A stretch of 64,000 nucleotides of DNA, from positions 1 through 64,000 of the forward strand of contig JAJPKR010000065.1 in assembly GCA_021323595.1 (NCBI GenBank). The letters run 5' to 3'. How positions within the stretch are numbered: the stretch's first letter is position 1; each line of letters begins with the position of its first letter. This DNA comes from Terriglobia bacterium. GTDB lineage: Bacteria > Acidobacteriota > Terriglobia > Terriglobales > SCQP01. Shown here one piece after another: positions 1,786 through 3,655 of this stretch. The translations under genes were made by a program, and so were the position numbers. The notes below the pieces were generated by a model, which worked only from the letters and a program-made list of their open reading frames with translations, was not told the origin of the DNA and did no database searches.

Positions 1786-1824
1786 AAAAAGCAAAAGGCC
1801 CGCTGAACTTTCGTTCAGCGGGCC
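1786..1824 (-). terminator. Intrinsic terminator acting as attenuator in the aroF leader
   Basis: On the minus strand GGCCCGCTGAAC (1824-1813), a GAAA tetraloop and GTTCAGCGGGCC (1808-1797) form a perfect 12-bp stem. TTTT (1796-1793), GC and TTTTT (1790-1786) follow. It sits 23 bases before the aroF start, after the leader peptide stop, so it can end transcription before the gene. A competing antiterminator is possible: leader bases TCAGGCGGG (1873-1865) can pair with CCCGCTGA (1822-1815) of the terminator 5' arm, with one bulged G. The pairing was done by hand. Confidence 0.88.
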
Positions 1825-1849
1825 AGGAAGTCGCGAGCTAGTTAGCTAG

Positions 1850-1912
1850 CTACGACACACCCCTCCCGCCTGACCGGTAATACCAAAAACGGCTGGCCAC
1901 GGAGCGGTGCAT
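1850..1912 (-). CDS. Aromatic-amino-acid leader peptide (Phe-Trp-Tyr-Tyr) of aroF
   Basis: A 20-codon ORF, ATG at 1912 to TAG at 1850, starts MHRSVAS and contains RFWYYR, encoded TTT TGG TAT TAC at 1888-1877. Four consecutive aromatic codons, covering all three end products of the pathway, lie directly upstream of a terminator and then DAHP synthase. This is the layout of trp/phe-type ribosome-mediated attenuation: a ribosome stalled on uncharged Phe, Trp or Tyr tRNA would let the antiterminator form. The promoter -10 ends 10 bases before the ATG, so the transcript should have almost no 5' UTR and no Shine-Dalgarno. Function is inferred from layout; the codons are directly visible. Confidence 0.85.
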   Translation of the reverse strand: MHRSVASRFWYYRSGGRGVS

Positions 1913-1921
1913 CGAAGCGCC

Positions 1922-1950
1922 AGTATAGCCGATCGCCGGAAGGCTGTCTA
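1922..1950 (-). promoter_or_regulatory. Promoter of the aroF leader transcript
   Basis: On the minus strand TAGACA (1950-1945), a 17-base spacer and TATACT (1927-1922) match the sigma-70 consensus at 5/6 and 5/6. A start 6-7 bases after the -10 falls at about 1915-1916, only 3-4 bases before the leader peptide ATG at 1912. Confidence 0.78.
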
Positions 1951-2163: not shown

Positions 2164-3363
2164 ATGGCTGAAAGCATCACGATCTTTGACACTACGCTGC
2201 GGGATGGCGAGCAGGCGCCCGGCTTCAGCATGAAGCCGGCGGAGAAGGTGCGGCTGGCGCAGCAGTTGGAGGCGGCGGGGGCGGATGTGATCGAAGCCGG
2301 CTTTCCGATTTGTTCGGAAGGCGACTTCGAAGCGGTGACTGCGGTCGCGCGGGTTTGCCGGCAGGCGAAGGTGGCGGCGCTGGCGCGGGCGGTCGAAGCC
2401 GACATCCGGCGCGCGGGCGACGCCCTGCGGGAGGCGGCGCGGTCGCGGATTCACGTCTTCATCGCGACCAGCGACATTCATCTGCAATACAAGTTGAAGA
2501 AGACGCGCGCGCAGGTGCTGGCCGACACCTTCAGCGCCGTGCGCATGGCGCGCGAGTACACCGAGGACGTGGAGTTCTCGGCCGAGGACGCGACCCGCAC
2601 GGACCTCGAATACTTGATCGAGGTTTTGGAGGCGGCGCTGGAGGCGGGCGCGACCACGCTGAACGTGCCCGATACGGTGGGCTATTGCGTGCCGGCGGAG
2701 TACGCGGCGCTCATCTCGCAGTTGAAGAGCCGCGTGCGCGGCATCGAGAACGCCGCGCTGAGCGTGCACTGCCATAACGACTTGGGCCTGGCGGCGGCGA
2801 ACACGCTGGCGGCGCTGGCGGCGGGCGCGCGGCAGGTGGAGTGCACGGTGAACGGCATCGGCGAGCGGGCCGGCAACGCGGCGCTGGAGGAGATCGTGAT
2901 GGCGCTGCACGTGCGGCGCGACGCGCTGCCGTTTTTCACGAACATCAAGACGGAGATGCTGGTGCCGCTCAGCCAGGCGTTGACCGAGATCACCGGCGTC
3001 GGGGTGCAGCCGAATAAAGCGGTGGTGGGGGCGAACGCGTTCGCGCACGAGGCCGGCATTCACCAGGATGGCGTGCTCAAGTCGCCGCTGACGTACGAGA
3101 TCATGACGCCGCAGTCGGTGGGGTTGCGGCAGGGCCAGTTGGTGCTGGGCAAACATTCGGGCCGGCACGCGCTGCAGAAGCGGCTGGCGATGCTGGGCTA
3201 TAACTTCGAGCGGCGGCAACTGGACGAGATTTACCGCGAGTTCCTGGCGCTGGCGGACCGCAAGAAGACGGTCGAAGACGCGGATTTGCACCGGCTGGCC
3301 GGCGGCGGCGCCTTGCCGCGAGCGGCGGCGGAGGCGCAAGCGCAGCCGGGGGCCCGCTCCTGA
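2164..3363 (+). CDS. leuA: 2-isopropylmalate synthase, short form without the leucine regulatory domain
   Basis: Catalyses acetyl-CoA plus 2-oxoisovalerate to 2-isopropylmalate, the committed step to leucine. The 399-residue product carries [12 protein letters not shown] (9-20), HCHNDLG at about 202 (metal ligands) and HEAGIHQDG at about 295 of the DRE-TIM metallolyase family. Full-length LeuA is around 510-520 residues; here the protein stops shortly after TVEDADLH, where the C-terminal leucine-binding LeuA_dimer domain would begin. No missing segment is found in other frames, because the next gene is a cupin. It may therefore be insensitive to leucine feedback, or be a related short synthase such as a citramalate or homocitrate type. 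Linkage to leuB favours leucine synthesis. CAGGAG lies just upstream of the ATG. Confidence 0.88.
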
Positions 3364-3382: not shown

Positions 3383-3655
3383 ATGACGGCAGTGGCGAAA
3401 AGAATTCAGACTTTTCAGGGGACGCTGGAGCGCCTGCCTGCGGGCGAGCAGGTCGAGCGCAAGAGCGCGGAGCCATTCATCGCGGCGGTGGTGAGCGGGC
3501 GGGTGCGCCTGCGCCTCGGCGAGGAGACGGTCATGCTGCGGGCCAGCGATGCGGCGGCGGTGCCGGCGCACGCGCGGTACCGGCTCGAGGTGCTTGACGA
3601 TTCCGTGCTCTACCATTACACGGAGCCGGTGGACGAGAGTCTTTGGGGCGTCTAA
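3383..3655 (+). CDS. Small cupin-domain protein
   Basis: A 90-residue protein made almost wholly of one cupin-like beta barrel: PFIAAVVSGRVRLRLGEE, then a proline-flanked turn (AAVPAHARYRLEVLDDSVLYHYTEP). The classical cupin histidine and glutamate metal ligands are not clearly present, so it may be a non-metal or sensor-type cupin. GAGGGAATT precedes the ATG. It sits 19 bases after leuA and 25 bases before leuB, apparently in the same transcript. A role in leucine synthesis is not established. Confidence 0.7.
   Translation: MTAVAKRIQTFQGTLERLPAGEQVERKSAEPFIAAVVSGRVRLRLGEETVMLRASDAAAVPAHARYRLEVLDDSVLYHYTEPVDESLWGV

Follow-up and report, generated by a model that had tools for sequence, protein, structure and literature searches.

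How does this bacterium decide whether to transcribe aroF, the gene of a DAHP synthase, when a promoter, a 20-codon open reading frame with four successive aromatic codons and an intrinsic terminator all stand upstream of it? The window in which this arrangement lies is a stretch of 64,000 nt from a Terriglobia bacterium (contig JAJPKR010000065.1), and the parts of the locus are listed in table 1. We consider it very probable, from the sequence and its predicted folds, that they attenuate the transcription of a single DAHP synthase isozyme by a ribosome-mediated mechanism, in which the codons for Phe, Trp, and Tyr would be read jointly.

Table 1. Features of the aroF leader locus (positions in the window).
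Feature	Position	Strand	Remarks
-35 hexamer TAGACA	1945..1950	minus	5/6 vs TTGACA, 17-nt spacer
-10 hexamer TATACT	1922..1927	minus	5/6 vs TATAAT; 3' end 9 nt before leader ATG
Leader ORF, 20 codons + TAG, MHRSVASRFWYYRSGGRGVS	1850..1912	minus	
Putative regulatory codons TTT TGG TAT TAC (Phe9 Trp10 Tyr11 Tyr12)	1877..1888	minus	
Predicted antiterminator 5' arm GGCGGG, within leader ORF	1865..1870	minus	
Hairpin that spans the stop codon of the leader and runs past it; inner part of the extended antiterminator	1829..1856	minus	
Terminator 5' arm GGCCCGCTGAAC	1813..1824	minus	1822-1817 also used by antiterminator
GAAA loop, terminator 3' arm (1808-1797), and T tract (1796-1786)	1786..1812	minus	
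aroF, N-terminally extended DAHP synthase of 371 aa	651..1763	minus	TIGR01361, NF006421, PF00793

The preliminary description of this DNA had reported a consensus-like promoter, a 20-codon ORF with TTT TGG TAT TAC in a row, and a perfect 12-bp GNRA-looped terminator with a T-tract followed by aroF, and each of these parts was found again. The promoter (TAGACA-17-TATACT, 1950-1922, minus strand) matches the sigma-70 consensus at 10/12 positions and is the sole one of its kind in 600 bp, where 0.1 would be expected, while the terminator (1824-1797) has 12 perfect pairs, 9 of them G-C, around a GAAA loop, with the tail TTTTGCTTTTT. Beyond it, a ribosome-binding site (AGGGGGA, 1773-1767) precedes the aroF ATG at 1763, and the aroF product scores above the cut-off for both TIGR01361 and NF006421, as a DAHP synthase. 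Since the other neighbor of the leader, leuA, points away from it and no gene of the minus strand ends immediately upstream, the terminator can act on the leader transcript only. When the window was scanned as 1158 overlapping 330-nt pieces on both strands, an aromatic ORF (four or more aromatics within 10 codons) combined with a terminator was seen twice, both times at the aroF leader itself, and the predicted fold of the leader RNA is 5.7 sd better than those of its dinucleotide shuffles. A longer reading of the ORF, with 46 codons from an upstream ATG, was rejected since that ATG precedes the promoter and relatives keep the 20-codon start. In the product of the divergent leuA (window 2164-3363, plus strand; 399 aa), a Pfam search recovered just the HMGL-like and post-HMGL domains, with no LeuA allosteric domain at the C terminus, and this enzyme may thus escape leucine feedback. 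A small cupin-like ORF (3383-3655) and a leuB-like ORF lie downstream of leuA.

Within the leader ORF, the segment GGCGGGAGG, coding for S-G-G-R, resembles the terminator 3' arm (CAGCGGGCC) and can pair with the terminator 5' arm. The alternative helix put forward earlier, 1873-1865 with 1822-1815, is the same helix as the one recovered here, give or take a one-base bulge: its core joins 1870-1865 (GGCGGG) to 1822-1817 (CCCGCU) and is extended by inner pairs. In the predicted folds, a ribosome that stalls on Phe9, Trp10, or Tyr11 leads to antitermination and one that gets as far as the stop codon leads to termination, in agreement with the attenuator reading of the preliminary description, in that the two predicted folds are mutually exclusive and the switch would fall at the aromatic codons. 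With the ribosome at Phe9 and the terminator 3' arm still unmade, 7/7 sequences (the window leader and its six family orthologues) are predicted to fold into a long antiterminator that uses the ORF arm; with the ribosome at the stop codon, which masks this arm, the terminator alone is predicted to remain. According to the codon in the A site, the predicted energy of the antiterminator stage in the window rises from -31.6 kcal/mol at Phe9, -30.4 at Trp10, and -29.5 at Tyr11 to -20.8 at Tyr12, -14.4 at Ser14, and -3.6 at the stop, and the same predicted step is found in relatives near the end of the aromatic codons; Tyr12 is thus predicted to be a weaker stall site than Phe9 to Tyr11. When translation is left out of the model, the antiterminator arm is taken up by a hairpin within the ORF and the terminator forms. 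Since the most stable fold of the full transcript always includes the terminator, antitermination must be kinetic.

For the window alone, the arm pairs with the terminator no better, by duplex energy, than do shuffled arms of like G-rich composition (p 0.2 to 0.4); since such shuffles pair equally well, we turned to comparative evidence. Across 46 distinct leaders of DAHP synthase genes, pairing with upstream sequence takes up 69% of the terminator 5' arm versus 47% after shuffling (Wilcoxon 2e-5, indicative only, the rows being related rather than independent). The partner arm begins before the start of the stop codon, or at most 13 nt after it, in 42/46 leaders, and the terminator is predicted to form with the ribosome at the stop in a mean of 96%.

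From the parts of the locus, their conservation, and the mutually exclusive folds, we infer the following course of translation, stalling, termination, and amino acid sensing. Transcription would begin at the leader AUG or a few bases before it, as the promoter spacing suggests, and the ribosome would load at the 5' end. If Phe-, Trp-, and Tyr-tRNAs were all charged, it would reach the stop codon and mask the GGCGGG arm, leaving the terminator 5' arm free to form the terminator, and transcription would end near 1786. If any one of these tRNAs were uncharged, the ribosome would stall at codons 9-11, its front stopping shortly before the GGCGGG arm or barely reaching onto it, and this arm could then pair with 1822-1817 while the terminator 3' arm is still to be transcribed, allowing readthrough into aroF. 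Were the leader not translated at all, the hairpin in the ORF would sequester the arm, so that termination would be the default.

This architecture recurs in the family. The search covered 13 other family genomes, six of which carry an aroF orthologue (59-70% identical), and, as the preliminary description had anticipated for close relatives, an FWY-rich ORF and a terminator precede every one of these orthologues (6/6, with the antiterminator arm inside the ORF in all), as they do many DAHP synthases of the class. The six leaders read RFWYYRSGGRGVS, RFWYYRSGGRGVW, RFWYYRSGGRGVS, RFWYFGTSGRGVS, RFTYYWYYRTNGRDLP, and RFTYWYYPSGGRSLP. Their aromatic run is FWYY, FWYF, FTYYWYY, or FTYWYY, its indels are all in-frame (multiples of three), and Phe stands at codon 9 in 7/7 family members even though codons 2-7 vary and the stop codon may be TAG, TAA, or TGA. 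The clustered aromatic codons with their frame, position, and stop are thus kept in 7/7, as are the terminator and the CGGG of the antiterminator arm. At the level of RNA, the outer antiterminator helix is nearly invariant and hence shows no covariation, while in the hairpin at 1829-1856 relatives differ in sequence yet remain paired, as read from single-sequence folds.

A structured leader with a terminator ahead of an amino-acid gene could also be a T-box or a riboswitch, that is, a leader RNA that binds tRNA or a ligand rather than being translated. We find this very improbable, given that the Rfam scan of the whole window returned a single tRNA match, with no Phe_leader, Trp_leader, T-box, or riboswitch at gathering score, and that in the family the coding pattern of the leader is conserved while the RNA between is not. 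Alternatively, the good conservation of FWYYRSGGRGV among the closest relatives might betray an arrest peptide, which would sense free aromatics or another ligand in the ribosome tunnel in the manner of TnaC instead of tRNA charging. Yet this stretch coincides with the antiterminator arm, which accounts for its conservation at the RNA level, and elsewhere in the class the peptides differ almost wholly save for their aromatic content; an arrest peptide therefore seems to us quite improbable.

Within the family, the leader goes with one paralogue. The genome of the window (G000) holds three DAHP synthase paralogues of at least 50% identity, plus a weaker match, and the leader was not found before the other DAHP synthase paralogues of the family, including the two further copies of this genome (L002 and L003; C14 and C11). 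Some 4 kb separate the C11 copy from trpE, which is on the other strand. The neighbors of aroF vary among the genomes inspected (for instance, leuA runs divergently in the window and L089 has a lexA-like ORF upstream), and hence the leader travels with the gene rather than with the locus. In the same family, no aromatic ORF with a terminator was found upstream of trpE or of the prephenate dehydratase gene, so that, in what was checked, the signal is specific to DAHP synthase. One family genome (G013, 95% complete) gave no DAHP synthase match at E 1e-60, and it may use another class of the enzyme or have an assembly gap.

To follow the leader beyond the family, we scored an upstream region as positive when it combined a hairpin and a T run with an ORF 8-45 codons long in which some stretch of 10 codons has four or more F/W/Y, in samples of best protein matches rather than random draws, so that the percentages hold for these sets only. 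By this measure, 16/110 DAHP synthase upstreams were positive in a first set (versus 0.12% of shuffles) and 36/135 in further genomes (versus 0.26% of shuffles), or 52/243 when pooled, against 1/243 on the reverse strand, 3/1830 inside genes, and 3/1286 further upstream, all below 0.5%. Among the further genomes, positives reach 31/79 in other families of the class (the ORF alone, 39/79, about half), 3/14 in the sister family of the order, and 2/42 in other classes. These figures also bear on the idea of an unregulated terminator accompanied by a chance ORF. Such hairpins are indeed not rare by a simple scan (0.8 expected in 600 bp), but the frame, codon 9, stop, and arm are conserved in 7/7, the control rates are those just given, and an unregulated terminator between a promoter and its gene would merely waste transcripts; we give this idea almost no credence. 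In a tree of 105 Acidobacteriota DAHP synthases, where a few leader labels were set by hand because the script had missed a start codon or terminator, the presence of a leader is clustered, changing 9 times versus 30 with shuffled labels. The paralogue groups holding the other two copies of the window genome (26 and 18 rows) have zero leaders, whereas 28 of the 43 rows in another group have one, as do 7/7 in the group of the window.

The leader of the window is also close to its promoter, its -10 box ending 9 nt before the ATG. Many relatives share this spacing (8-10 nt between the end of the -10 box and the ATG, with TATACT at a gap of 9 recurring), and a strong -10 box (score at least 6) lies 5-13 nt before the start in 23/56 leaders versus 3% of shuffles. 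This spacing points to leader mRNAs that may be leaderless or nearly so. Leaderless leader peptides, with an ORF at or near the transcript start and no ribosome-binding site, are known from Streptomyces (PMC8079986). Those of Streptomyces and Corynebacterium are backed by RNA-seq or experiment, whereas the window leader, from another phylum, is judged by its -10 spacing. For Corynebacterium, a leaderless leader peptide was reportedly described by Morbach and colleagues in 2000.

With regard to known systems, the preliminary description knew of no DAHP synthase attenuator of this form, and here it has to be corrected, for the kind is already known: both aroR of Corynebacterium and uORFC-13-1 of Acholeplasma precede aroF. 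The aroR leader of C. glutamicum encodes Phe-Tyr-Phe and responds to Phe and not to Tyr (Neshat et al. 2014 via PMC11802643; PMC4046766). Like the window leader, it places aromatic codons in a peptide upstream of a DAHP synthase gene, with ribosome-mediated attenuation (predicted in the window); unlike it, its motif as reported there is without Trp, and it belongs to another phylum (the two were compared by peptide motif alone, by eye, FYF vs FWYY). The uORFC-13-1 motif, described upstream of aroF in Acholeplasma and environmental sequences only, combines an upstream ORF with an intrinsic terminator, as does the window leader, but its RNA is different and its description gives Phe codons and a ribosome-binding site (PMC8632094); two Acholeplasma loci (L027, L072, with YYYFY) probably represent this motif. 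Attenuation had likewise been hypothesized for aroF of Escherichia coli. The trpL, pheL, and pheST leaders of E. coli share with the window leader end-product codons, alternative hairpins, and a stop near the antiterminator arm, but each reads one amino acid and controls a terminal branch or a synthetase, where the window leader would read three at the common first step. Closer in logic are the ilv leaders (Ile/Leu/Val), of which E. coli ilvL is a multi-amino-acid example and in which one leader reads all the end products of a branched pathway, albeit branched-chain rather than aromatic. The ilvB leader of Corynebacterium also reads several amino acids (PMC11109978).

The behavior of AroR, in which Tyr is encoded yet its availability is without effect, raises the alternative that the attenuator responds in practice to one aromatic, that with the scarcest tRNA, the others being passengers. 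The weak stall predicted at Tyr12 would fit, and so might composition: codons for F, W, and Y occur together in 46/57 distinct leaders (204 F, 150 Y, and 67 W in total), when a random F/W/Y mix at the same aromatic counts would, by our own estimate, bring all three together in about 70% of leaders. On the other hand, Trp, the rarest amino acid, is present in most leaders, no residue is kept class-wide, and the geometry of the arm would permit stalling at Phe9, Trp10, and Tyr11 alike, so we regard a single-aromatic response as rather unlikely. It is plausible, albeit unproven, that the leader responds to each of the three.

What appears to be new here is the presence of codons for all three aromatics, the phylum, and a class-wide distribution specific to one paralogue; our search of the open-access literature found no paper on Acidobacteriota aroF leaders. 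Acidobacteriota are abundant in soil, and almost none of the attenuators predicted in a premature-terminator survey of Acidobacteria has an assigned function (PMC2965389); one class of these would now gain a proposed target, signal, and mechanism. The leader would be the aromatic counterpart of the ilv leader, all end products being read at the first common enzyme. More broadly, it may be that a class-wide, paralogue-specific system of Acidobacteriota, in which a leaderless and fast-evolving leader peptide integrates the charging of three aromatic tRNAs, controls the entry into the shikimate pathway and takes the place that TyrR/TrpR repressors and leaders for one amino acid have in model bacteria, a proposal that we hold tentatively, leaning slightly against it. 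The dozens of natural variants, with unlike peptides and the same logic, offer a good system for studying the origin and turnover of leader attenuators, and also suit the question of whether a leader with mixed codons reacts to every shortage or to the worst one only.

Several minor observations accompany this distribution. A second type of attenuator, in which a GAGUGG-CGUUGG arm just past the stop codon pairs with a CCACUC-type terminator arm, was seen at L060, L076, L043, L131, L137, and other loci, and looks like a separate RNA lineage suited to a covariance model. The leaders of family f9 (RPYSSFGSFSSLSWYYRGRRAD type; L005, L113, L114, L117, L118, L121) have no obvious ATG near the -10 box. 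Finally, aromatic-run leaders, several with clear terminators, also stand before DAHP synthase genes outside the class (L036, L061, L041, L263, L266), in Spirochaetia (FSFGYFYFYF), Lachnospiraceae (YFFYFFNFFFQGFYFF), a contig labeled Micrarchaeota (WNYFFGFYSFSF), and two genomes of other Acidobacteriota classes (QYFYFYYFY, QFYFYFFYF).
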